64,000 nucleotides of DNA from Branchiostoma floridae (Eukaryota > Chordata > Leptocardii > Amphioxiformes > Branchiostomatidae): positions 12,885,189-12,949,188 of the forward strand of contig NC_049993.1 of NCBI RefSeq assembly GCF_000003815.2, written 5' to 3'. The notes under the pieces were generated by a model, which ran no database searches, was not told the origin of the DNA, and saw nothing but the letters and a program-made list of their open reading frames with translations. Below, in pieces: positions 37,105-63,905 of this stretch. Numbering within the stretch: position 1 is the stretch's first letter; each line of letters opens with the position of its first letter. Position numbers and translations under genes: made by a program.

Positions 37105-37782
37105 GATGTTCTGTTGTTTCCTCCCCAAACACACCACTTCACCGCAACACCTGTTTTGTCTTGGATTTGTACTGTGTCACAATCGTGACATCTGTAAAAT
37201 CATCCTACAGGAAATTCCATTCTGACGACACCATATTGAAAAATTTCTTCGTAACGATCTTTGTAATTCTAGAACGTAATCATGTTTACGGTACGACTAA
37301 GGTAAGAAGACGATACGAGGCTGTTTTCTTGTCGTCCGTGCCCAACAATCTTAAAGATGTTACAACAAGACGTACTAGGGAACAGGAATAACCAAGTACA
37401 TGTGTTTAACCAAGTACTACCGTCCGTATTCTGTCTGTTTCTCAAAGTTCTCTAAGTGTTCAGCTGTACATCTTTCAAAGTCACTCTTAGCTTGCTTACT
37501 AGTATTTGTAGAACGCCACCCAACACTTGCTAAAACACATGTCTGTTTATACTTGTTCAATGATACTGTGATTGACAACTGTCCTTTTATTTGTGAATGG
37601 TAGTGATACCCTGTATCTAAATTTAGGTCACATACAGCAAGTAGAATCCTTGTAACGTAACTGAAAAGAACAAAATTTGTACAATGCAAAGGATGTTTGT
37701 TTAATTCTTTTTTTTCCTGTCATCTTTTCATACATTGTCTTGCTCGGTCATTTTGTATTTCCTTTAAGTTCTATAAACTTCA
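37105..37782. other. Region 5' of PHF24-like B
   Basis: Should contain the promoter for first exon 1a. No coding signal or element recognised before the tandem repeat at 37783. Confidence 0.4.
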
Positions 37783-38078
37783 ACGGCCACTTATAAAAAC
37801 CTCAATCTGGCTGTCTGTAAAATTCTACAGCCACTTATAAAAACCTCAATCTGGCTGTCTGTAAAATTCTACAGCCACTTATAAAAACCTCAAGCTGGCT
37901 GTCTGTAAAATTCTACAGCCACTTATAAAAACCTCAAGCTGGCTGTCTGTAAAATTCTACAGCCACTTATAAAAACCTCAAGCTGGCTGTCTGTAAAATT
38001 CTACAGCCACTTATAAAAACCTCAAGCTGGCTGTCTGTAAAATTCTACAGCCACTTATAAAAACCTCAAGCTGGCTGT
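37783..38078. repeat. 44-bp tandem repeat, about 6.7 copies
   Basis: Unit ACAGCCACTTATAAAAACCT + CAAGCTGGCTGTCTGTAAAATTCT, starts at 37783, 37827, 37871, 37915, 37959, 38003 and 38047. Copies are nearly identical (first two have CAATCTGG in place of CAAGCTGG). Each unit contains ACAGCCA and TGGCTGT, which can pair. Confidence 0.95.
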
Positions 38079-45150: not shown

Positions 45151-46043
45151 CTTGTCCAGCTGCAGTATTTATTTCATTAACTGCTAGGGGTCGCTCTTAA
45201 ACTATCAATGTAAAATCGTATTTGCAGTATAATCTTCTGTCGTTCTATTTTAATTCGCCTAGTAGCGCGCTTGACACAGAGAAAGAAGGTGCCGGTTGCC
45301 CTGGTAATTGTTACTAATGAGTTGTTTTCGTTGAAATACGAAGGGAATACTGCATTAGAAGTAACTTTGATGGAAAGAAAGCCAGGGGAAGTCTGTCAGT
45401 CTAATACCACCCAATAAATTCGGCGTAAACTACTAGAGCTCGGTCTTCTGTTGACTGTGGTAGAGTTCACATCAGTGAGGGCTGACTGAGACCGCTGACC
45501 AACACAAGTTTCTTTTCAATTCACTAATAGAAAATTACGATACAACAGATAAAGAATCGAAGTATGATTTTACATTAAAAAAACTTAGCTTTACCTAACC
45601 CAGAATATAAAGGATCATAAAGTAATGACAATGCTTGCTTGGCTTGCTCTGGTAGCGTGAGACATGACTGGCAGTTACAGTACACGATTGCACCAGAGCG
45701 ATTGTACAGAACTTCTACATAGAGGCTGTTGGTAGACTTCCAAATAGATACCTCAGTTATAAGGAAGACATTTTCAAATTGCAAACATGTATTGTAGATA
45801 CAACAAGACACTTGATACAAAGTTGATAGAGCTGAGTTGAAAGTTTCAATTTTAGTACAAGGTTGGTTTCCCAAAATTTGAACGTTGCTGTTGTATTAAA
45901 GGACCTTGTCATGATTATATGTAACTTTGTTACAAGTTATATTTGGATCATTCTGCAGGGTTTGATAGTGTTTCTTTGAAAATCAGTAGAGAGAAAATAT
46001 TTGAATTTTTGACCAGTATTTTATGCTAATTTTATCTTTTCAA
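45151..46043. other. Intergenic, no gene recognised
   Basis: Lies between the tandem repeat and the retrotransposon. A roughly 99-codon minus-strand frame at 45575-45874 has no family resemblance or splice support. Otherwise nothing seen. Confidence 0.35.
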
Positions 46044-48591
46044 CCTCCTTGGTTATAATCCACCCCCGGGTTCGCTCAGACACAAAGCAGATAAGGATGT
46101 GATCGCGTACCTCAACGCATCAATCCAGTCAGCGGAGACGAAGTACCCCATGTCCGGAGTTGTACTACTTGGTGACACCAACCAGCTCAAGTATAAGCCA
46201 TTGTGTATGCGGACTGGGTTGAAACAGGTTGTCTCGCGTCCAACCCGAGGTGAAAATCAGCTGGACTCGATTTTCACCAATCTGTCTAAACACTACAGTA
46301 GTAAACCTTTACATCTCCCTCCATTGGGAAGTTCAGATCACCAGGTACTAGTGTTACCGGGCACGCCATGGGTAAAGGAGCCTGTCTTCGTGCACCGCCG
46401 GAGAAAATGTACTCCCGAAACAGTGCGTTCGCTTGGTCTGGCACTGAACCTCGCCGATTTCTCCCCAGTGGAAAACACTCCGCATGCAGAACAGAAAGTA
46501 CACCAGTTCTATTCAATTCTGCGCCCACTACTCGACAGCTTGTTACCCTTTAAGAGGGGGAAAGTCACCTCCAGGGACAAGGAGTGGATTACCCCCCGTA
46601 TTAAAGGACTGATAAGAGAGAGGCAGAAAGCCTTTATGTCAGGAGACACTACCAACTACCAACGTCTACGTAACAAGATACAACACTACATGAAGACAGC
46701 TAAAAGATCTTCCTACGAGAAAGAAGTAGACCATCTAAAACACGGTGACACACGCAAGTGGTTCAGTCTTGTGAAGTCCTTGATGGGAGCTCCGAAGAAG
46801 AGAGAAGGCAGTTTGCCGACCCCTGGAATAGACTGTGATTCACTGAGTGAACACTTCTCGTCCGTTTGGTCGAATGTTACCCGTGACATACCGAGCACTG
46901 CAGACGTCTCGGACCAGCTTTCCACTGGATCATTGCCAGAGCTCAGTATAGGACAGGTTAAACTCCAACTCAGAAAGCTCAACCCACGCAAAGCTACCGG
47001 AGACGACCACATTCCGACATGGATTCTGACTACTTTCCACGAGGAACTTGCTCCTGTGCTATGTAACATCTACAACTCCTGTCTGCAACAGGGCATATTC
47101 CCTGAACAATGGAAGTCGGAGTTGGTCGTTCCAGTACCGAAGACATCTAAACCCAAGGGGCCTGAAGAATACAGAAGGATCTCCCTTACCAGCTGTCTGG
47201 GTAAAGTACTGGAATCGTTTGTCCGTGTGCTGTTACAGAGAGACACTGACCACCTGATCCATGGCTCCCAACATGGCTTCAGGCCGGGGAGATCAACGGT
47301 GTCGGCCCTCAACCACATTACGCAAACCTGGCACGACGCGCTCAACAGTAAGCCGAAAATGGATGTACATGTGTCATTCATCGACTTTAGCCGGGCGTTT
47401 GACACAATTGACCACGGCAGTCTTCTGCATAGCTTGGCAAAGATGGGGGTGAGACGGGACCTGTGGTGTTGCTTGCGCAGTTACCTGAGTGACCGTGTAC
47501 AGCGTGTCAGGTGGGGTTCGTGTATCTCCTCGCCACGCCCAGTACTCGCCGGAACCCCTCAGGGTGGGATCATCTCGCCAACTCTGTTTGTCCTGGCCAT
47601 GAACAGTCTTGACAAAGGCATCCCGATCAGTGTAGCCCCAGTTAAGTACGCTGATGACCTGACAAACACAGAACTTCTCATGGGATCGCTACCAGGCCAA
47701 ATGCAACTTGCCATCAATGAAGTTGACTCTTGGGCGAAGTCCTACAGTATGGCAGCTAATGTGAAAAAGACAAAAGACATGGTGGTCAGCTGTCGTAAGG
47801 AGGCAGTGAACCCCCCTCCACTTACTTTGAACGGGGAGAACGTGGAGCGTGTGCGGAGGTTCAAACTCCTTGGAGTGATAGTAAGCGACGACTTGTCCTG
47901 GGGCCCACACATTGAGTACATGTTGTCGAAAGTCAGCCCCAGGATTCACTACCTGCGACTGTCCAAACGAGCCGGGCTACCAGCAGACGTACTTCTCCAG
48001 ATCTACAAGACATTCATCCGCCCAGTACTGGAGTACGGCTCACCGGTGTGGGGAGGTCTACCCCGCGGTCTGGCTGAAGAGCTGGAGAAAGTCCAGAGGT
48101 CCTGTTGCAGGATCATCGGTATACCCTACGAACAGCTACCTACCTTGGAGTCCCGGAGACGGGATGCGACTGTACGTGAACTGAGAAGAGTGGTGGCTGA
48201 CGCCACTCACCCTTGCCAGGAGTTCCTGCAGCCGGCTACAGAGTGTCAGTACCAGCTACGACGGGCTCCCCGTTTTAAGCTGCCACTGAGCCGGTCCAAC
48301 AGACATTCGCAATCGTTTATCCCCAGGGCCCTTGCTCTGTTGAATGACAATTAACGCACTATCAAATCCGTATGACGTGTACCGAACTCATTGTTACAAA
48401 TATTGTATAGTAAACGTCTGTAATTTGTGATTTTAAGCAAAATTATAAGTCAATGTAAAGTATGCCTTTAAAATTGTAATAACTTTTTAAACAATGTTTA
48501 ATAACGAAGCTTGTAAACACCAACACAATTCAGGCTAAATTGCCTGCAAAGTGGTGATTTTAATAAAGTTCAAAGTTCAAAGTTCAAAGTT
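46044..48591 (+). mobile_element. 5'-truncated CR1/L2-like non-LTR retrotransposon with open RT frame
   Basis: The frame opens at 46030 and runs to TAA at 48352-48354 (about 770 codons). It begins inside the endonuclease domain (YNPPPGSL; VVLLGDTNQL; GSSDHQVLVLPG) and continues through the whole reverse transcriptase: FIDFSRAFDTIDH (palm Asp), GTPQGGIISPTLF, catalytic VKYADDLT, then LLGVIVSDDLSWGPHI and RPVLEYGSPVWG of the thumb/C-terminal part. The 3' tail ends in AATAAAGTTCAAAGTTCAAAG-type 7-bp units (48560-48591), typical of CR1/L2-like elements. The upstream endonuclease catalytic residues are missing, so this copy should not be mobile by itself. No frameshift noticed. Confidence 0.85.
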
Positions 48592-49127: not shown

Positions 49128-52100
49128 ATGTATACTTCGAGTTTCAGCGGTTTTAGTGGACATTTCCGAACAAAACCCACCGTAGCTTTGGGCGGAGCGA
49201 GCAGGAAGGTAGGAAGTTATATCATGAACTTGTAAATATGTGACCTGATTACGTCTGCGTTGGTCTTCTAGGCTGTTTCTTGAATCAGGAAAATTTAGAA
49301 TCTCACGTATAATGGGGGAGGGGGGCATGGCGATCTGATATCTATGCTGATTTTTGGATCTTATGACTGGGTCGTAGATTTCTGTGACACAACAGATGAA
49401 TAGAATAGCTAGCGTACATGTACACCGTATCTTCGATGATGATCCAAATTTATGATCCGATTTCCCTTACATCATACTAGTAACGTTACTTTGTAAGGAT
49501 GCATCGTGTGTGGTCTTCAGATGGAACATAATTTTGTTTTGTTTATGCAAGGACGTAGACGTCCTCGGCTTATGCATAATTTAAAATTAGCAATCATCAC
49601 TGATCAGAAATGTTATTTCTTTGCAATCACTCTCATAGATACTGGTAAACATTACGTTTTGTAATGTTATTGATAGTCTGTGCATTATATGATTACTGTA
49701 CATGCTGAAAATTGTGTTCGCGACCACCGCAAACATCTTTCCATTACAGTATATGACTATAGACTGACTATATAGCTAGTGCAGTATATGGCGCTACTGC
49801 AAACTCAAAACCCGTAACCGTGAGCATTCAATATTCCTGCTACCACGAAATTGAATCCCAGCAAACTTAAATGCATTTACAGTAGTTGATGATGAAAAAT
49901 CTCATCATGAGGTTGGTTTAGCTTTGCTTGACTTCTCCCCATATCATAGTTGATATATATATACATGTGTATGTAAGTACTATACATTATTGTACATTTT
50001 CTTACAGGAACCCAGAGATGTACTCCTCAAGAGAGCACAGGAGGAGAGAGAAAAGAGAGAGGTATGTGATGGTATCAGGTCGAGAAATAAATCTCTCCAG
50101 TTATGTAGCTTTTACTTTTCAGTACAAACCTCGTGTGTTATGCCATAGAGCAAACAAACAAACAAAAAGCTTGATTCAACTCGGCTCCTACATTGTAGGT
50201 AATTAGAGCTCGGGTCAGGTTAATTAGGGTTCAGCTAAAATGAGGTTTAAGGGGAGGGTTCGAGTTAAGCTTTGGCAGCAAAACATCTAGAAACCATCCT
50301 ACTATAGGCATCATCTGTGAAGAATTGTCCTGATTTGCGTGATTCTGAGTTGTCTTGGTACTGCCAAGATGACCGACATTCAACTTCAAGTGTCCAGTTC
50401 AGAAGGCTTTGTTGATAATTTCACATTGCACAAACCTGTCTGGTTTGGATCTTCTAAAATAGGTCAGTACTTTCTATTAGAGTAGTAACTGAGTAGTCAT
50501 CATTAGAAATTCTAATGATGACTACTCAGTTCCTCATACTCTAACATTGAACATGCATTTTCCACCATATAGGAGCAGAGAAGACGCCAGAATGCCAGCA
50601 TCACTATCCAGTCCTACACACGGGGCATGTGGGTCAGGCATGAACAGGTAAGGACTAGTGGTGGGTACTGGTCCATTGTACTGGTACAAAACCATTTTTC
50701 TTGTTGGACCGGTCCACATTTTGGGCCAAGCAGAAAATTTTTTCCATGCTCCCAAATTCTTAGGCTTGGTGTACCTTTGCACTTATAACCAAAAAGGAAT
50801 GTCTAAATCTGGAGTATATATGCATGTACATGTATAGTTCTTACTGAAGTCTTTTTTATCATCTCCCACAGAAAGACCATCAGAGACTGCTGTACGATGC
50901 CTGCATGACTGACATGGAGAGTGGACAGGTCACTCCTGACCCCAGTAACCTGTCCTGGCTGACCAGGAGGCTGCTGTTCTTCTACTCACAACAACTGGAC
51001 ACAGACAGACTGGTCAGTTAACCTCTGTTAATGTTGTTATTCATGGTACACACACCAACTGGACACAGACAGACTGGTCAGTTAACCTCTGTTATTGTTG
51101 TTATTCATGGTACACACACCAACTGGACACAGACAGACTGGTCAGTTTTTCTGTTAGTCAGGGTATATGGCAAATAGGTCAGCATTGGACGAAGGTGTAA
51201 CAAAACATTGATTTTATACAGAGAGGTGTTAGTGACTAAGCTCCTGTATACTGCAGTATAGCATAGGGTCATAGGCCATACCCCACTGCCACCTATGAGT
51301 TCTTGAATGCTTCAACCAACACTGCCTCCACGGAACATACAGTATTTGTTGTCGAGAGAGAAGTGATATGTAGTGTACTGTATGTCAATTTTTGGCAATG
51401 CCTCAGAGGTGGAGCCCACTTTAGTATTGTTCAAATTTCTGTGATTATGGCAAATCTTAGACATAGTAGATAGTAGCTTGACAGGCTTAGGATGATTTTT
51501 CTACCAGGAAGGACCTGTATCACTGGTACTTAGCATATCTAAATCTAAGATTGATTTTTAAATGAAAAGGCCTCTATGATCTATTCTTGGAAAGGAAATT
51601 TATCATGTTGGACGTGTTTTACAGGTGAAACTATGCCAGCTCCTCCTGAAGAAGAAGAATGTAGGAAGCCTGGTGTGTACCATAGGGAAAGAGACATGGA
51701 CTCACCAGATCAAACGGGTCTTACTGCTGTGCTCAAGGTAAGACTTAAGATTCCTCAAGTGATTTGTTCAAAATCAATGTCTTAGAATTAATAAACTTGA
51801 CACCTTCCACTTGTTGTGTGTCTTATTGTGGTATATGTCTGGTTTCAGCAAAGGGAGAGGGATACGCTATTCAAATAATGGTGCTTATAATTACTTTCAG
51901 TGTGTTGTATTATTGAAATATGAAAAGAAAAGTCGATGAAATGATGGTTTAGGACTTACCTTTTGGTATTACCAAAGCAGTCTCAGAGATAGCAGGTCTA
52001 ATGACAGCAGAGTAAAAAAGCTACCAGTACATTACGCCCTCTGGCAGACTATGCACAAACTCCACCACTGTATTGTAGAAATACAAACATATGTACACAG

Positions 52101-55100
52101 GCAACTGAGGCAAGCCTCTTGCTGCAAATACGGTAAGCAAAATGGCACAGTTGTCATGCTTTTAGTGTACATTTGTTGGTAACTGAAAAACTTTTGTTTC
52201 CTTCTTTTAGGTATCTGGAGATGATATCCCAGTCCCACAGTCCCATCGCTGTCCCCCTTCGGACGTTAGAGACATTCACAGACACTGCGGTGTACCAGGA
52301 GAGCTCACTACTCACACAACAACAGTCAGAGATGGTGGTGTTAGAAACCATGGAGTACCTGTGTAGTCATGGTAAGTTTTAGGGATGGTAGCAGTATAGT
52401 ACAGTGTTAGAAACCATGGAGTACCTGTGTAGTCATGGTAAGTTTTAGGGATGGTAGCAGTATAGTACAGTGTTAGAAACCATGGAGTACCTGTGTAGTC
52501 ATGGTAAGTTTTTGGGTAATAGCATCTTGGGTTAGATGATGTGTAAGTATGTAGCTCTATGCTGAAATTTCCATCTTTGAATAGTTTCTTTCTATAGTAA
52601 CTTATTTGTTCAAATGTATTTATGGATAGTGTTCAGAATAATGAACATTGCAGTCTACTGTAATGATGATTCATAGGAATCCTCAATTCATAAAGAAAAT
52701 TTTGTAGAAAATATAAGAAGAAAACTCTTGGCTTGACTTAAAAGCATATGTGACAAAGATGTGGTGATATGATGTAGATGTCTCAAACATACATGTATGT
52801 GCCAATAGTTACGAAAGCTACTGTATATGAAACAGTCAATATTTTTCTAAACTCTAAACTGGTATTTTTTCAGTTGCTTTAGTAACTACTATTTGGCATA
52901 TCTCATTACATGTATATCTAATCATCTTCAATTTTTGAATATATGACTTAAATTCAAGTAATATTGATTATTATCCACATTTCAAATGAAAATGTTCAAC
53001 TTGTGTCTTTCCCCTAGGTTACTTCAGACACATCGGAACCCTGGTGAACAACAGAATACCTGACAGTATTGAACACTCCACCAACCCTCCCACCCCTCTT
53101 GCTGCTACGTTACTGGAGTTTGTAGTAAAGCCACTAACTTTGATCAGCTCACAGCAAGCCAAAGACACATACAGGCAAGTAACAGATACAATATGGTGTG
53201 GCCTTCTTTGACTAGTAATATGCTATTTCATGTACTTGTTTTTGACTAGTTTACATTATATTCTGTATTTTTAATATATGGATTTGTTTACAGTAAAGCT
53301 CCTAGATGTTTTGCATATCTAACGTTTTTTCACTGGATTATAAAATACATAGATACACACACAAAATATGCTTTGTAAAACAATTTTCCTTTAACAATGT
53401 CTAACATATAAATCACTTTAACTTCCCAGAGATACTGTTCTGTGGGCTTTGTGTAAGGATCTCCTAACTCAACCAATCACAGAGCAGGTTAGAAACTTCA
53501 TCCTGCCTGCCATGGCTGCTGGGAAACGAGGCTTCCCATTTGAGAACCTGTTGCAGGCATTGGCTCCTGTCAGTCATGATGTTTCAGCCAATGTGGGCGA
53601 GTCCTCACCTGTCAGTCATTCTAGGGTGGAGCCATCTCCTTGGTTGCTGTATTCCCTGTTAGAATTAGGAGACTGTCAAGTAGGTAAGTGTATCTCCATG
53701 TTTTTGCTCCAGTTTTCAAGGAGAAAGTTGTAGTAGTAGTGGTATCTAATAGCAGTAGTAGTAGTAATCTAATAGCAGCAGAAGGATGTACTTTGAGGTG
53801 TTGTTTTTGCAAAACATGAGTGCTGTATCTGTCACTTTGTTGGTGTCCCTCATTACATTTCAGTGAATCATGGCACAAACACTTTCACACGTTTGGAGAT
53901 TGCCTGACCACCTTAAATGAATCTCTTTTGAATGTGAACAACTCAAGAAACGATACTTAAAAAGTTGCGATGTAAGAATCATAAAACACAGAAATGCTCT
54001 GTACTGAAATACAAGAAGGGACCCTTACATTAAAGTCAGCACCTGCCTACTTCATTGATATGGAAAGTTAATAGAAATTCTCTGTTTAACTGTACTATGA
54101 TCTAGTATACAAACAGATCAACAAGGGTGTAATCTAATGGTTAAAGTTTGAAATATTAGGTATAACCTGAAGACATAATTGGTTATGATTGAACAGTTCT
54201 GTATCCCTTCTCCCACAGAGAGGTTGAGCCAGTCGTCCCTGACGTCCTACCTGCATGTGTTAGAGACTCTCCTGCCCACCTTACCCAGTGTGGGGAGGGC
54301 TGCACGGCACCAGGCAGACGACTCAGACTCTGAAGACGAAGGCATGGACACCTTAGACCCCATGTTCTTAAAGGTAAGTACACATGTATTTGGCGTACTA
54401 TGTCTACTGTATTGTCTGTATACATGATGTCTCTTAAGAGTAGATTTTGTATGTCAATCCATTTAGGATTACCCTTCTTACATGTACTATATGTGACTGG
54501 TACAATCATACATGGTATGTTATCACACAAAAAAACTGGTGTTGTATCTCTTAAAACATTGGGATTTCAGTTCAATTCATTGCTAGTGTAACAAGATTGT
54601 ACTGTAGTGTACATTTATATAAAGTTCCAGTAATTAAAAAGATGTATATTAAATTTTTGTGTATCAAAATGAGCTTAGTTGGCAGATTTAGCATGCCTTT
54701 GATAAAACTTCCAGTATTTGTAGCGTGTTCTGCAAGTGTCAACTCTTTTCTTGGACTTAGCACAAGAAAATTAGATATAGACAATACATACATCATAACT
54801 GTCCATATAAAAAGGATTTACCGACTAATCTATCCTCCCCACCCCCCAGTCTGGCAGCCTGAACTCCCCCCAGGCCCTGAGGGAACAGTGTATCGCCATG
54901 CTGGGCTCCTGGAACCATATCAACTGTTTCCTGCGCTGCATCTTCAACGGGCTGTCCCAGGCCACACTACTGGCCCTGTGTTCTATCCTACATACTCTCA
55001 TGGCCAGGCATAACCTACAGGTCCACAAGTTCAGGTACAGTAGCGTTGAACATATGTGTTATAGATAATGAGATATCAGGATGTTTTAATAGTGAGTGAC

Positions 55101-58100
55101 TGACTACACAGTGTGAGTGTATAGTGAATGTATTTGAGTAGAGTTTAACACAGAAAGGAAACGCAATTCAATTTCTACAACTGGGTGAAAATTTTGATTA
55201 AAAAAGATTTAAAAAAAATTAACTTCTGGACGTATTCTAGAATGCCTTCCGATGCCTTTTAGTAACATTGGGGAAAAGTGATGAATGTGACTCAAAACGT
55301 CTGGAAGTAAATCTCCAATTTTCATCCAGTTGTAGAGATTGGATTGCCTTTGAACATTGTTAACCTGGATGACTACTCTTCATAAACATAATACCGAGAG
55401 ATTGTACTCTTAGAAGATTACTAACCTCCTTTGTTGGATATTTTTGTCTACTTTTTCTTTAGTTATAAGGTATAACTTGTGGCCAACATTAACACTTATT
55501 CTGTCAATGATCCTCATAAGGGATGTTGTCCTTTTTGTCAGTGTTACTTTCAATGTTAGTCTGAAAATGTTTTCCTTTGGCCAAACAGATAGTTCAAGAA
55601 GAAACAAAAGCCATTTACTGCACTGTGTGATACTGAAACCACAGTCAGCCATAAGAGTTGTGATTACTTTGTATTGCAGACTACTGTATACACTAGCCTT
55701 CAATGGAGCATTTCTGAGGCAACTATATGCTGCAGTGTTGGGTGCAACCAAGACAACAGCCACAGGGTAAGCAAGGAGTGCAACATGTTGTGTCTTTTCA
55801 GAAGCATTAAGTAAGCTGAATGATACAACTAGTGCAGAACACTGCATACAATGTCAGCAGAAGTGAAAAAATTGCTCCATGCAAGGTTCTTAGATACAGT
55901 CAGACCTTTGTTTGGTGACTGTGTTTGAATAGCTGTGTTTAAACAAAAGGGACGAAAGAAAAGAAAGAAAGAAAATGGTCGCAATACACAGGAGGCCACT
56001 ATCAACAGCAATAAATTTTGTACTTTCGTAATGATTTGGTCATTAATCAGAAAGTTGATATATAAGAAAAGAAGCAATGAATTTATCCACTGAACTAAAG
56101 AGTTTAATAAGAGTTAAGCAATTGATTTTGAATGTACCACAAGAAATGTAACAAAAGTGACTGAAAGAATTGATTTTTTTTATCTCAAGAAGACTCAAGA
56201 GACTTAGGCTCTTTTTTTCTTTGTTAGCTCGAAGGTGCAGCTGCTGCAGCTGTTGGCAGGTGGCATCCCCATGGCACCTGAGGACGCCCAGCGAGTGGTG
56301 CCCCCGCTGTCCCTGTTCTGTTCCCTCTTCAGTCATTCCCTCATGTCGCTCCATGACATCGACTTCTATGCAGAGACACCAGGTATGTTCGGCCATGGTC
56401 ACAATTTGAGACAGGAAATGAGATAAACTATGATATTACATTCTGGGACCTTTGACCTAAATTCCTGCTAGTGTCTCCAATGATAGTGGGAATAAGTGCA
56501 TAAATACACAGATAGACAAAGAGGCACATTGACGCACATTTTTTAGAGGGTTGAAGTCTGCCATCTCTGATTATCTTGTTCCCCTTGGTTCCAGACCGTT
56601 CCCACGCCATGCCGTTTCGCCTGGCGGACCTGGTGTCCATGAGTGCGGTCCTGCGTGACGTGTGTGTGGGCATCATAGAACTGGCCATACCTGACACTAA
56701 ACCTACTGTAGGGGAGGACTATAGGTAAGTAACATACCTGACACCAAACCTACTGTAGGGGAGGACTATAGGTAAGCAATGATAGGGCCATTGCTGACAC
56801 TAAACCTACTGTAGGGGAGGACTATAGGTAAGTAACATACCTGACACTAAACCTACTGTAGGGGAGGACTATAGGTAAGTAATGATTATCAAATCAACAT
56901 GGCCTAATGTAGATCTGAAGTTCATTATTTGCAGTTTGGGTGATATGTGTACCTAGCAGTGCTGTAGAGATTACTTTTTTTACAGGTAGTCTCTAAATGT
57001 TACTTGATAAGAGATGAAGTACAGTACAAGTTATCAGCTTGTAGAAACAGAGTCCATCATTGGACAGAGTCCACCAACTGTTTGAAAATGTGTGGCGTGA
57101 ATTGCTGTTGTCATTTTCTCACAGGAAAGCTATGAACAGTGTCGGTGCCAAGGTGTCGGACGGAGCTGACCTTGACTTCCAGAGACAGACAGAAGACTGG
57201 GCACACCTTTTTAAGGTCAATAACTATTGTTTTTTTTGTATAACCTCTGTTAGAACAATAAGTACATGGATTAGTATGGGGTCACAGATTTCTCTTGTCA
57301 CGAGTACTGTAAATGCATTTAAGTTTGCGGGGATTTAATTTTGCGGTAGTGGGAAAAGGGACTTTTCGCGGTGGTTTTAAGTTTGCGGTAGCACCATGCA
57401 CTGTAGTCTCTTATTGCCATGGAAAAATGTTCGCGGTGGTTTTAAGTTTGCGGTAAGCTACCACTGTGAAAACCACGAACATTAAACCACTGCAAAAGTT
57501 TCTGCATTTAATACCTTGTTGTTTGTATTTACAGTACTTCGACTAGTTTGCTTTATCAAGGAAATTTGGGGTTTTGTTTGATGTATTTGAGATGCAGGTA
57601 TTGAAAGTTTTCTATCTCACCCCACAGGTGATCACCCATGTGGTTGCCCAGCTGAAGGCCCGTGACACCAGACAGAGGTTCTGTCCACATGGGCACTGGT
57701 TATCCAGCAGGGTCAACATACAGGCTACCAGGGTAGGTGCAATTATACCGTGTACATGTATGTCTGGGTAGAAGGCCTCATGTTCATCTCATAAGGTGAT
57801 GTAAGCGTCCCAGGAATTTGCTGTTTTCTATTTATATTTGTGAGGGTATCTTTGCAAAGGACTCCACAGTACTGGCAGACTCAACTGCATGTCTCACAAC
57901 TTTAAACTGTTGTCTAGAACCTTACAGAGTCCAGCTCTACACAGCTTGTACCTACTGTTTGCTACAGATCTTGTGCCAGTTATGCAAAATAAGCAATTCT
58001 TTTGTCGTCTTTTAAAGAGATTCTTTTATACCCCCTTATAGTTATACTACATATTACTTAACTAAAGTTTTCATCATTTAAATGTTACGATGTTTCCCTA

Positions 58101-61100
58101 GCCGTCAGCCATGCAGCGTGGCCAGACCATGTTGAACTTCAGACATTATCCAAGCTGCTCAATGAACTTAAGNNNNNNNNNNNNNNNNNNNNNNNNNNNN
58201 NNNNNNNNNNNNNNNNNNNNNNNNNNNNNNNNNNNNNNNNNNNNNNNNNNNNNNNNNNNNNNNNNNNNNNNNCAGTCACAGAGACCAGACAACTCACTAT
58301 CTTAAAGGAACTACCTTTTGTGGTGCCCTTTGAAGAGAGAGTCAAGGTTAGTATGTCTTGTTTCTGTCTTTCTTGTGCCACCAAAATACTTAGTATCGGA
58401 TGTGATGAAATCAAATATGTTCCTTGCATTATTATTTTCTTTTTTTTACAGATTTTCTGACACAAGGATGAATTTCCGTTCAATGTTGCAAGTTATATCT
58501 ATTTCATTTAGTAGGTAGTAGAAATATTTTGCCAATCAACTAGTCCTAACTTTTTTGCAATTTGTACTCTTGAACAAAACTGCTTGAGTTGCACCTTAAT
58601 GCATAGCAAACAAAAATGAAACAGTACATATCAATTGTTGATTATTGTCTGTGAATATTGTACAATACTGATCAGTATTGATACTGAAGAAGGCAACAGT
58701 GGTCTGACATTGAAAATTTGATCTGTGTGTACCTTTGTGTTGGAAGAAAGTTTAGCATTGTACAATGATTACTACCGACACAGATGGGCTTCCATGATAA
58801 TGGCCTGTGCTTGTTGGGTAAGGTGTCCTGTTGATCTTTACTTTAACTTGACCTTGCCCTTGTTGCCACAGTTGTTCCAGCAGCTGATCCTGAAGGATAA
58901 AGACGAGCACCAGGCAGACTCCATGTTCTTCCTGGAGCGAGGAAACTCCCGGCTCATCGACGTCATGATTAGGAGAAACTACATCTATGAGGACGCCTAC
59001 GAGAAACTGTCGCCAGAGAACGGTAGGCTCAACGTCTGAGTAACAGTTTTAATGCAAGAGAGATTGATTGCAAGGAAGAATGGTTTGAATAGCAAAAGCA
59101 GACCAGAGTAATGTGTTATGTAAGGCAGAATAACTTATTCACTCTATCATCTGTTCAAGTACAATGTACAACTTGGATATTTCAGTAACTTTTTCCTTTT
59201 CTGCATCCTGATTATCTGCAACCCACTTTGTCTCTACAAAGACATAATCAGTAATCTTTGTATACAATCTCATGCTGGAAGACTAATACAGTAGCAGGGG
59301 AACACATAACTTCAGTTTCATAAAATGGTAACAAAAAATATCTAGGCTATACAGTTCATCTACGCGTCTACCTACGTTACTGGGTATTTGACTTCTTTAG
59401 AGTCATTAGCTAATGAATAGTCCTATAGTTTCAATTTTTGATTTTAGTATAAATGTGTTTGTTTTTTGTAATGATTTTTGTGTTGGTTAAAGCTTTGACA
59501 GTTTGCTGTATTCTACTGTAGCTAAGAAATTAGATTTCTGACAAAACCCAGGATAAAGCCACACCTTGACCATGTTTCTTTTACTTGCAGAACCAAACCT
59601 GAAGAAGAGAATGAGGGTGAACCTAGTCAACTTCCAGGGTCTTGAGGAGGCAGGGATAGACGGAGGGGGGATCTTTAGGGAGTTCCTACATGAACTACTG
59701 AAGGCAGGGTTCGACCCAAACCGCGGGTTCTTCCGTACGACAAACGATGGGCAGGTCTACCCAAACCCTGCATCAGAACTCCTGGTGGAACACTACGCTA
59801 GACATTATTACTTCTTAGGCAGGATGTTAGGAAAGGTGAGATCATAACATTGAATAGTACTATATTTTACCAAGCTCTTTGCTACATGTAATTTGCTACC
59901 TATAGTTTTCTCAACTTGGATTGAAAGGAAATACTTGTATATTAGCTAAAGTCTTTCTTACAAGGAGCAGAATATCTATCAATCAATCCATCAATAACCT
60001 TTATTTATCCTGGATAGCCCTGTTGGCATTTGTCGCTTATCCCAGAAGTCCAGACTTTTGTGCATTTCAGAGAAAGAGAGATGAATGAAAATGAAAAAAA
60101 AAGGTTTCAATTGAACTATTTTTCACATTGTCCAATGTCCCTATTTGTAACTTAACTACTGTATGTACTAGAGTTAATGGTTCTTGCACCATGTTGAGAT
60201 AACTTCTCTACTTTCACTCCCAGGCCTTGTATGAGAACATGTTAGTAGAGATCCCCTTCGCCAGTTTCTTCCTGTCCAAGATTCTCAGTAAACACAACCA
60301 TGTGGACATCGACCAGCTCCAGTCACTGGATCCTGAAGTATACAGGTCAGAAAACTCTATTATCTTTAGACTTAGATATTGAGAAAAATTGCAAAATTTA
60401 GTATATTTGTTATAAATTGTGTCCTGGATAGTGCATGTGCAGTCTTAATAAAGTGCTTAAGGAAGACATAAGGTCTAAACTGCCCAAGATGGCCACTAAA
60501 GGGGGACCAAGAAAATCTGGTCTTTGTGGACAGGTCGTTATTATAGACAGGATTGTTTAATGCTTGTGTCAATGGGGAAAGTAATCTGTGGGACCTCCAA
60601 AAAATGGTCACATAGCCCAAGTGGTACGTTTCTAGAGATGGTCGCTTGTATACATATGTTTGATTGTACACACATCAGATGGAGATGTGTACAGTCTAAT
60701 GGAGATATCAATTAACAAACAAACAAACAAACATTTAGTCAATTGTATCAATAATGGGAAAATTCTCTAGCCAATTATACATAATGTACAATATTTAGAT
60801 GTTACAATGTATATGGATTATCATTATACTGAATGTGACTCTCACATCCTATAGAAATTTGCTATTCCTGAAGAATTATGATGGAGATGTGTCTGATTTG
60901 GCCTTGAACTTCACCATTGTCAACAATGACCTTGGAGAGGCACAGGTGAGTCATTTGTTTTCTTTTCCTCTACTTTGACACGCCACGATTAACACATTGA
61001 CATATTCAGAGTTTGCTGTTGATATTTCAAAGACAGTGTCACAAAACAGATGTAACTGGAATCAGAATGTAAATAATACCTTCTTGGTTCATTGTTGTTA

Positions 61101-63905
61101 TATTCATTGGCAAGCCGCATGTTGTTATAAAAAGAGTACAATATGGCTGACTTACATACAAGAATATGATTTTATCAGTTTTGATACTGAAGAAGGTGAC
61201 AGTGGTCGTTGAAAATTTGATCCGTGTATACCTTTGTGTTGGAAGAAAGTTTAGCATTGTACTATGACTACTACCAATGCAGATGATCTTGCATGATAAT
61301 ATGATGATATGTCTGCATTTTTACAATACTAATGAATGTACATCTTTTAATTTTTTAGAAAAAAAAAGTTACCCAAACCATATCAGTCTTCTGAATTAAC
61401 GTATTTTGGGCTAACCAAATGTGACATGTTACTTGTAGGTTGTAGAGTTGAAACCTGGAGGCCAGAACATCCCTGTGACATCAGAGAACAGGATTCAGTA
61501 CATCCATCTGGTGGCAGACTATAGACTCAACAAACAGGTCAGCACTGGTGAACTCTTCACTTTGTGTACTAGGAATTTTAATAAAAATTTGAGGCTTAGC
61601 TAAACATTTGGTTTCCCTGTAAAAAGGGGATGAAAAAGTTCACATGTGACTTTTATTGTGAGAATGAAACTGTCGAATTGGGATGTTTGTATGTTGGTAC
61701 ATTCTATCGCTGCAAACCAGAATATGGTTAGATTTTTGCTTGTAACACGTATACCATAGTGTCAATTTACCATAGTGTCATGTTCTACTGATTACAAAGA
61801 TCCAAGACAATACCTAGGGTAGAAGGATTTGATATCAATTATATATCATTATATTTCTTATATGGCACAATTTTGAATGAGAGACATTGAATTGGTATCA
61901 TAGAGGAAAACTTGTCAGACCATTATTGTGAAAGTGTACATGTAGTGTTATCATAATGTATCTATACTCTGCCCCCCTCCCACCCCAGATCCGTGCCCAC
62001 TGTATGTCCTTCAGACAGGGTCTGGCTGATGTGGTCAACCTGGAGTGGCTCAGGATGTTTGATGACCAAGAATTGCAGGTAACAGTACACAAATTGTAAA
62101 GACATATATGACTGGTTTATTTCGAAAACAAAACTGACAGTAACATAGCAGCCTCAAGGCTGAATTACGACATGTCATTACATCAATCATTAAAGTAGTT
62201 AAAATCGAATATCATGAATCATTACAATAGTACAGCCCTTAAAAATCGTTGCAGACGAATTAAATCAGTATCGGGATAAAGCATATAAATTAGTATTTGC
62301 AGTAATATCAGCATATCCCTTTATCGGAAGGTAAACAAATATTTAAAATACACAATAACTTACTATTTGATACAAAGCACAAACATACAGGTTACAATTA
62401 CTTGTTCAAAAGACGGACCATGAAGGGTACAGCGCTGTTGCGATAGCGTTCAGTTCTACAGCGAGTAGTGTTCAGTTTGTGGGATGACCTTGTCTGTCTA
62501 CCACTGATCTCACCTCTGGCTGGTGGCAGTAAGTGCAAGAAATGATCGGACTGACTGAGAGAGTTAGCAAAGTGTGTGATCAGTTCAAGACGTCGTGCTT
62601 GTAGCGAAGGTAGACCCAAGTCAGAACAGGCATCAGTGTAAGACGTGTATCTCTGTCCCAGTATTATGCGCACAGCTCTCCGTTGGACCTTCTCGATCCT
62701 GTCACTAAGTGCAGTGGTGAGCCCGGAGTGCCAAACGGGGGCACAATACTCCAGGACTGGTCGGATGTAAGTCACATACACTGTGACTAGGTCGCCGATG
62801 GACACGTTAAAGTGTTTCAGATTACGGAGGAGGTAAAGGCGTCGGCTAGATTTGTTACAAATGTTGTCAACGTGAGAGTTCCAACGTAGGTCAGCCTGCA
62901 GAAACACGCCCAGGATCCTCATCACTGGCACCTGTTGTAGCTCTGTGTTGTCAATCATGAGAGATGGTGTTGGGTACGGGACCTTCCTGAAATGGATGTA
63001 CATAACTTGACATTTCTTGGGATGCAACTTCATATGGCTGGTGCGAGACCAGTGGTCCAGGTCGTTCAAGTCCTGTTGCATATGAGACATACTTAGGTTG
63101 GGGGTTCTTATTTCCAAGAGATTCAGGTCGTCAACGAATTTCCAGCGTTTGGAGGCAGCCTGATGTGCGGCGCTGTTGATATACGCAAGGAAAATCAACG
63201 GCCCGAGTAGAGTGCCCTGGGGTAATCCGCAGGTAACCTTCATGCTGTCGGAAAGTGTTCCATGGTAGCGTACAACCTGGCTCCGGTTTGAGAGGAAGTC
63301 TACGATCCATCTTGTCACAGAGGGGCGCAGGCCAAGATCAAGCAGACGTTGGATAGCGAGGTTGTGACACACACGGTCGAACGCCTTGCTATAATCGGTT
63401 GACACAAGAGAGCACAGGACGCCGGGTTTGTCGGTGGCTTTGAAAACCTCGTTGGTCAGGTCTAGGAGGCAATGTGTTGTCGATTTGCCCTTGAGGCAGC
63501 CGTACTGTTGAACATCGATTTGAGGAACGATGTCGGTCAGCACCCACCGCGAGACAAAATATCAATATTTTATATATGATATGGCTGTCCCATTTGAAAA
63601 AAACAACAACACAGTCATGATCTTTTATCTATATAATACGATATTTACCAACTTATCAGATTGTTCTGTACCATCACCTGTGTATCTTTGTAAAGAATAG
63701 TTTCACCCTCTTAGGTTTTGAGAATGGAATAGCTACAATGTATAACTGAACTGGACAAAATTCTTGTAGGAGGTTAGAATGCTAATGTCACTAAGTCATT
63801 GAATTTAGACTCACTAATAATGTTTCTTCCTGTTGAAGGTGGTGATTTCTGGATCCCAACAGCCTGTAGATGTTACTGATCTAAGGAAGCACACAAACTA
63901 TTCAG
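49128..63905 (+). CDS. UBE3C: Ubiquitin-protein ligase E3C (HECT E3), partial at the 3' end
   Basis: HECT-type E3 that extends ubiquitin chains at the proteasome (family knowledge). Exons: 49128-49208, 50008-50061, 50573-50647, 50872-51012, 51625-51737, 52211-52371, 53018-53174, 53430-53683, 54219-54373, 54850-55034, 55680-55766, 56228-56382, 56595-56724, 57125-57215, 57628-57732, 58102-58172 (runs into a gap), gap to 58346, 58872-59022, 59591-59835, 60224-60345, 60855-60945, 61439-61537, 61989-62078, 63839-63905. Visible total about 985 codons of the roughly 1080 expected. The N-terminus RTKPTVALGGASRK matches RPKVSLGGASRK of vertebrate UBE3C; an IQ-like motif (ITIQSYTRGMWVRHEQ) follows. HECT N-lobe: RRNYIYEDAYEKLSPEN, EEAGIDGGGIFREFLHELLK, ARHYYFLGRMLGK. 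The catalytic Cys exon lies right of the window. Confidence 0.96.
49694..49884. mobile_element. MITE, family TACTGTAAATGCATTTAA, copy 1
   Basis: Left end TACTGTACATGC, right end AAACTTAAATGCATTTACAGTA, with GTTCGCGACCACCGCAAAC and a middle resembling the element at 57305-57536 read on the other strand (GTTCGCGGTGGTTTTAAG). Fits an interspersed MITE with TA ends, in UBE3C intron 1. Confidence 0.65.
50487..50531. repeat. Palindrome, 22-bp perfect arms, 1-bp centre
   Basis: AACTGAGTAGTCATCATTAG.. at 50487-50508 and its exact complement at 50510-50531, extended imperfectly to about 50477-50543. It ends about 30-40 bp before the acceptor of UBE3C exon 3 (50573). Confidence 0.95.
50993..51148. repeat. 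64-bp tandem duplication across the exon 4 donor of UBE3C
   Basis: The unit starts AACTGGACACAGACAGACTG and carries the exon end, the donor GTCAGT and about 44 bp of intron (TAACCTCTGTTA, TTCATGGTACACACACC). It starts at 50993, 51057 and 51121 (third copy partial). Copies 1 and 2 differ at about one base. Use of the second donor would add 64 nt and run into TAA at once. Confidence 0.93.
52338..52510. repeat. 66-bp tandem duplication across the exon 6 donor of UBE3C
   Basis: The unit GTGTTAGAAACCATGGAGTA + CCTGTGTAGTCATG|GTAAGTTTTAGGG... starts at 52338, 52404 and 52470. Each copy holds the last 34 nt of the exon plus the donor GTAAGT. Reading through the first donor meets TAG within the next few codons, so only donor 1 gives full-length protein. 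Confidence 0.93.
53175..53180 (+). promoter_or_regulatory. UBE3C: Non-canonical GC splice donor of UBE3C exon 7
   Basis: The exon ends TACAG and the intron begins GCAAGT. The nearby GTAACA at 53179 gives the wrong phase and an immediate stop in the next exon (after GGCTTTGTG), whereas GC gives the conserved frame ...YR|DTVLWALCKDLL. AG|GCAAGT is the standard consensus of GC-AG introns. Confidence 0.85.
56694..56880. repeat. Four-copy tandem duplication across the exon 13 donor of UBE3C
   Basis: CTGACACTAAACCTACTGTA + GGGGAGGACTATAG|GTAAGT is present four times, with donors after 56724, 56771, 56827 and 56874 (spacings 47, 56, 47 bp). Copy 2 has ACACCAAACC and GTAAGC; copy 3 follows a different linker (GATAGGGCCATTG). 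Each later donor would put TAA in frame immediately after the first junction. Confidence 0.93.
57305..57536. mobile_element. MITE, family TACTGTAAATGCATTTAA, copy 2
   Basis: Left end TACTGTAAATGCATTTAAG, right end CTGCATTTAATACC..TTACAGTA. The inner part carries two copies of TTCGCGGTGGTTTTAAGTTT and pairs with AAACCACGAACATTAAACC. In UBE3C intron 14. Non-coding. Confidence 0.7.
58173..58272. other. Assembly gap (100 N) inside UBE3C
   Basis: Exactly 100 N, after the visible part of exon 16 and before the visible part of the next exon (reading ETRQLTILKELPFVVPFEER). Part of the coding sequence, equivalent to the segment just before the HECT domain, is missing. Confidence 0.99.
58683..58803 (+). 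repeat. Interspersed repeat, copy 1 (UBE3C intron)
   Basis: ACTGAAGAAGGCAACAGTGG..TGTGTTGGAAGAAAGTTTAG.. is repeated at 61187-61300 in the same orientation with about one difference per ten bases. Family unknown. Confidence 0.75.
61187..61300 (+). repeat. Interspersed repeat, copy 2 (UBE3C intron)
   Basis: ACTGAAGAAGGTGACAGTGG..TTGAAAATTTGATC..TGTGTTGGAAGAAAGTTTAG, same order as 58683-58803. Lies between the exons at 60945 and 61439. Confidence 0.75.
62100..63560 (-). mobile_element. 5'-truncated CR1-like non-LTR retrotransposon, antisense in UBE3C intron
   Basis: Minus-strand frame from about 63558 to the stop at 62398-62400 (about 385 codons). It covers the palm and thumb of a reverse transcriptase: YGCLKGKSTTHCLLDL, STDYSKAFDRV, CGLPQGTLLGPLIF, then KFVDDLNLLE where most relatives have YADD or FADD, and MRILGVFLQADLRWNSHV, IRPVLEYCAPVWHSGL. 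Truncated at FVSRWVLTDI, so there is no endonuclease and no 5' end. The 3' end lies near 62100 (AATAAACCAG on the minus strand). No frameshift seen. It is a different family from the copy at 46044. Confidence 0.85.

Follow-up and report, generated by a model that had tools for sequence, protein, structure and literature searches.

The tandem arrays that cover the donor splice sites of exons 4, 6 and 13 of a lancelet UBE3C gene are further cases of the repeats already described in amphioxus as mirages. With a probability of roughly 85%, they are ordinary short tandem duplications that have survived at borders whose exon is still delimited by the outermost splice site. This reading is favoured by repeat units that join an exon suffix to an intron prefix, by an outermost donor that alone keeps the reading frame at all three borders, and by copies that lie on one side only at other loci.

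We placed by hand 23 exons of UBE3C on the forward strand of the window, by which we mean the whole 64-kb stretch of DNA that was analysed. Exons 1 to 15 (49128-57732) are consistent in phase and free of stops when joined, and so are the eight exons at 58275-63905, past an assembly gap of 100 N. The second part of the predicted protein matched a UBE3C chain in the PDB (6k2c, E = 2.6e-139; the runner-up, HUWE1, reached 5e-39), and its HECT part matched the Pfam HECT profile at 1.4e-56. A PDB search with the first part (648 aa) returned no matching chain, so that it is assigned to UBE3C through its continuity with the HECT part. Gene sequence is missing at the gap (58173-58272), which lies between exons; at least one further exon would be expected there, and the gap might conceal another array. 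Exon 7 ends (53174-53176) in a GC donor, CAG/gcaagt, and the resulting GC-AG intron fits the reading phase. The features on which the argument turns are the following.

49128..63905, forward strand: UBE3C gene, the part held by the window, 23 exons mapped
50872..51012, forward strand: UBE3C exon 4, ending at the sole frame-keeping donor, 51012
50983..51147, forward strand: 64-bp tandem array over the exon 4 donor (TRF, 97% match), donor copies at 51012, 51076 and 51140
52211..52371, forward strand: UBE3C exon 6, from the gene model
52338..52516, forward strand: 66-bp tandem array over the exon 6 donor (TRF, 99% match), donor copies at 52371, 52437 and 52503
56595..56724, forward strand: UBE3C exon 13, from the gene model
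56683..56886, forward strand: 47/56/47-bp array over the exon 13 donor (TRF period 103, that is 47+56, 96% match)

Four arrays with a period of at least 40 were found by TRF in the 64 kb, and three of them are those of exons 4, 6 and 13. The fourth (37770-38078) is a 44-bp minisatellite of seven copies with a 98% match, outside UBE3C and away from the placed exons. At exon 13 the donor copies end at 56724, 56771, 56827 and 56874, and 103 bp is a higher-order period. The preliminary description had proposed tandem duplications across the three donors with three, three and four copies, and the TRF arrays and the donor positions confirm this; its view that the three events were independent is supported by the arrays, the donor positions and the anatomy of the units. 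Used as a DNA query against its own assembly, the exon 13 border matched a single locus, with no second haplotype to compare.

At each of the three borders the reading frame is kept by the first donor only. Every downstream donor leads to a stop at most three codons past the old exon end, the added peptides being V-S-stop, K-F-stop and an immediate stop, and the earlier claim of in-frame stops thus holds for all seven inner donors. Taking the downstream donors in order, the distance from the stop to the new junction is 58, 122, 58, 124, 46, 102 and 149 nt. GT is retained in all seven, and six score the same as the true donor, the exception being one exon 13 copy with GTAAGC. We infer that the first donor is the one used in UBE3C.

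Alignment of each repeat unit with the genuine end of its exon and with the intron sequence that follows the final copy showed it to consist of an exon end followed by an intron start, with scores of 35-47 against a maximum of 10 for shuffled sequences. The split differs from that first proposed (20-36 nt of exon, 16-44 nt of intron) and is corrected here: exon sequence makes up about 39-46 nt of a unit and intron sequence 8-24 nt, the exon share being partly diverged in exons 4 and 6. The surroundings of the donors are near-identical among copies; in exons 4 and 6 the copies have diverged around their junctions. Since the units are made of exon end and intron start, the arrays are plain tandem duplications. 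Filler DNA between the copies was considered and rejected, as the sequence separating the cores can be aligned to exon and intron ends from which it has diverged. Among the 37 donors and 32 acceptors placed in the window, only these three donors carry a clear local duplication: they score 37.5, 46 and 49 when aligned across their own border, with a null maximum of 13.5 from 1254 mismatched pairs. Fainter remnants of duplication were sought at the other donors of the window, and 34 of the 37 were at background. None of the 32 acceptors came near the scores of the three donors; two of them, with scores of 13 (a 13-nt match) and 12 (a 19-nt match), exceeded the 99% point of their null (11.9), the maximum of which was 21.

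Mirages are described in the available text of PMC3087553 for amphioxus Adh3 and for the globins BflGb6 and BflGb9, and that of PMC3902484 adds TnC and PGBD5 as mirage genes. Judging from these parts of the two papers, they have in common with the UBE3C arrays minisatellite-like tandem units that straddle an exon-intron border and repeat the splice signals. In UBE3C, likewise, the units span the border, the splice signals are repeated and the authentic exon is the outermost copy. The unit lengths given in the accessible part of PMC3087553 are 10-72 bp for Adh3 and 150-160 bp for the globins, and the 47-66 bp of UBE3C fall inside the published span. As far as these accounts go, amphioxus mirages occur at 5' or 3' exon ends, whereas in UBE3C they stand at three borders of one gene, all of them donors.

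Intron gain by tandem genomic duplication resembles the UBE3C arrays in that splice signals are copied by a tandem duplication. When AGGT is duplicated in this way, the duplicated segment becomes a new intron. In UBE3C, by contrast, the copied segment is a border that was already there, and no new intron appears in the gene model. Such gain is the subject of PMC4974935 and PMC3443670. We rejected it as an account of the UBE3C arrays, as no additional intron interrupts the gene at these borders and the inner sites lead to stops. Short tandem alternative donors share with UBE3C several donors in a row. They lie a few bases apart. The UBE3C copies are 47-66 nt apart with stops between them, unlike those short tandem donors, a class treated in PMC2423196.

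A false expansion of short repeats during assembly could also give such a picture, and in the available text of PMC3087553 one globin array does appear to be misassembled in the genome draft used there. For UBE3C we regard this as very improbable: the units of exon 13 vary in length (47/56/47), single-base differences separate some units, the zones where copies join in exons 4 and 6 are diverged, and arrays of this kind have been upheld by re-sequencing (PGBD5, PMC3902484) or by trace data (globin, PMC3087553), according to the same partial sources.

Other exon borders of the genome were surveyed in the assembly (513 Mb, 431 contigs) with exons taken from Pfam matches to HECT (32 of 67 used), myosin (18 of 142) and kinesin (28 of 134), 78 in total. 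Survey borders are thus the ends of profile matches in three protein families and not mapped splice sites. The 75 nt across each match end were aligned to the adjoining 315 nt, and a match was counted if it scored at least 30 with a complexity of at least 0.5; the null, up to 1500 random mismatched pairs of donor type, had a highest score of 12.5. Border-spanning duplications were found at 5 of 78 donor ends, with copies in the following intron, and at 5 of 75 acceptor ends, with copies in the preceding intron. Scans in the exon direction gave none at a score of 30 or more (0/78 donors, 0/78 acceptors, 0/156 in all), and one weak match (L005, score 18) when the cut-off was lowered to 15. The copies are therefore intron-side at all ten survey borders, as they are at the three of UBE3C.

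The overall rate of 10 in 153 border tests has a 95% interval of 3-12%. Leaving out loci L001-L008, already inspected when the test was devised, makes it 9/129, and dropping L063 as well makes it 8/127. Ten of the 78 exons were judged terminal, one of them with a donor array, which leaves about 69 real donors. HECT and myosin together gave 9/97 and kinesin 1/56 (p = 0.09); as the families differ in rate, the base rate is a rough one. The arrays lie at the donors of L006, L040, L049, L039 and L046 and at the acceptors of L052, L040, L049, L046 and L063, and alignments were made for eight of the ten. At L006 the end of a HECT exon recurs downstream together with its donor, the scanned copies including those at 139, 304 and 495 nt, and at L063 the start of a kinesin exon recurs twice upstream, at distances of 154 and 305 nt. 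At L063 and C2:31967610-31968130, three successive Pfam kinesin matches with the same profile start lie about 150 bp apart, so that an acceptor array can be read straight from the search result. A single myosin exon (L040, C1:21369331-21370452) has an array at its acceptor and another at its donor. Queries from the middle of exons matched in 3 of 78 cases, two of which are border arrays; the third crosses an acceptor array within a two-exon profile match (L005), seen by eye and outside the ten. Over the aligned stretch copies are 87-100% identical, and at 14 borders GT or AG is kept in 30 of the 31 copies scored.

These numbers bear on the suggestion that the extra donors are functional decoys, which would bind U1 and so tune UBE3C splicing or feed a share of the mRNA into NMD. 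Such a role would suit the full strength of six of the seven inner donors, the stops that follow all seven, and the near-complete retention of GT or AG at the 14 borders. However, with copies so nearly identical, the keeping of two bases needs no selection, and the same layout is found in other genes and at acceptors. The stop after the first inner donor of exon 13 is also only 46 nt from the junction, and the usual NMD distance is greater than this. In the part available, the globin paper concludes from its own RT-PCR, together with the Adh3 data, that splicing at arrays of this kind is regular (PMC3087553). A decoy function of the inner UBE3C donors is therefore unlikely, and we would give very low odds to this account of the arrays as a whole.

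The preliminary description had considered three such arrays in one gene striking, and the survey does not bear this out. In a scan of the survey type, with shorter targets allowed, UBE3C gave 3/23 donors, 0/21 acceptors, 0/43 reverse and 0/42 intron matches. At least three in 23 donors has a probability of 0.18 at the rate of 5/78 and of 0.23 at 5/69, and the comparison of 3/23 with the 5/69 survey donors gives p = 0.41 (Fisher). At the survey rate the UBE3C count is thus unremarkable: three arrays are expected in a gene of more than 20 exons when several percent of the sampled borders carry them. A design specific to donors is not supported, as acceptors (5/75) are affected as often as donors (5/78), and the lack of acceptor arrays in UBE3C may be chance (p = 0.15 for a rate of 4/47 obtained earlier). 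A simulation of placement inside UBE3C had pointed to a strong excess on donors (7.5% cubed), and we set it aside, as it was chosen post hoc and acceptors are equal in the wider sample.

A further possibility is that a mutational process truly targets exon-intron borders, for example at composition steps, through pausing or at R-loops, to a degree that tolerance does not explain. Intron-only queries matched in 7 of 153 cases, five of which are parts of border arrays already counted, leaving two (L053 and L005). Against the 10/153 at borders this gives p = 0.035 with the score of at least 30 and the complexity filter; without that filter the control rises to 3/153 (the third also in L005) and p to 0.085, and at a cut-off of 15 there are 11 border against 8 intron-only matches, after six parts of border arrays are dropped. 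The surplus of strong arrays at borders relative to introns is therefore suggestive and not firm, and its dependence on cut-off and filter lowers the odds of border targeting; of the proposal that the process favours borders, the contrast in strong matches stands under the first setting and fades under the other two. All three long UBE3C arrays do lie on donors, where random placement at tolerated positions would put each with a chance of 7.5%. In 20 random stretches of 10 kb, 23 arrays passed the period and composition filters, too few for more than a hint. A strong donor lay in four of them, with 1.3 expected (p = 0.025; a single inverted array accounts for two of the four, as its two arms), but a strong acceptor in none, with 1.0 expected. 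At L011 (7281-8886) two adjoining 51-bp arrays are apparently mutual reverse complements, and their units each have a strong donor-like and a weaker acceptor-like signal. Given also that these tests were devised once the phenomenon had been seen, we find border targeting doubtful. If borders really do exceed intron interiors, however, a process blind to position needs some further reason.

For tolerated tandem duplication we would propose the following course. The source segment would have straddled the exon-intron border, and a slip or an end-joining error may have copied the exon end, the donor and the first intron bases once. Unequal exchange or a second duplication would then add copies in minisatellite fashion. 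For exon 13, the unit pattern suggests that a 47-bp duplication came first and that a 103-bp one, covering the two resulting copies, came second, which would yield all four. The true exon would be the first copy at a 5' splice site border and the last at a 3' border, leaving all extras intronic, and this intronic position would be why the arrays persist. Use of the outermost site, a choice that published cases suggest, would give the normal protein. An inner UBE3C donor adds a stop, and such mRNA would probably be lost. Other layouts may have been removed by selection or as faulty mRNA.

Mirages were hitherto known from single genes, and a search of the literature, mostly outside subscription journals, found no genome-wide survey of them. 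What is new here is a small survey, with arrays at both exon ends and one-sided copies; the sample suggests that several percent of exon borders carry them, with the copies intron-side. With such rows of identical splice sites, existing RNA reads could be used to test how a choice is made between equivalent donors or acceptors. A stronger proposition, which we think rather improbable, is that duplications arise preferentially at borders and that the spliceosome also reliably picks the outermost of equal sites, the first donor and the last acceptor. If this were true, several percent of exon edges would be natural tests of splice-site choice among identical copies. Border arrays are also a possible source of new introns.

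The other genes with placed borders in the window we take to be an AMPK-like gene and two PHF24-like genes; the Pfam KIAA1045 RING profile gave one match, within the window. A retrotransposon reverse transcriptase frame (Pfam RVT_1) lies at 46030-48354, with an open frame of 774 aa, and a second retrotransposon RVT_1 frame, at 62398-63561, is found inside a UBE3C intron on the opposite strand.
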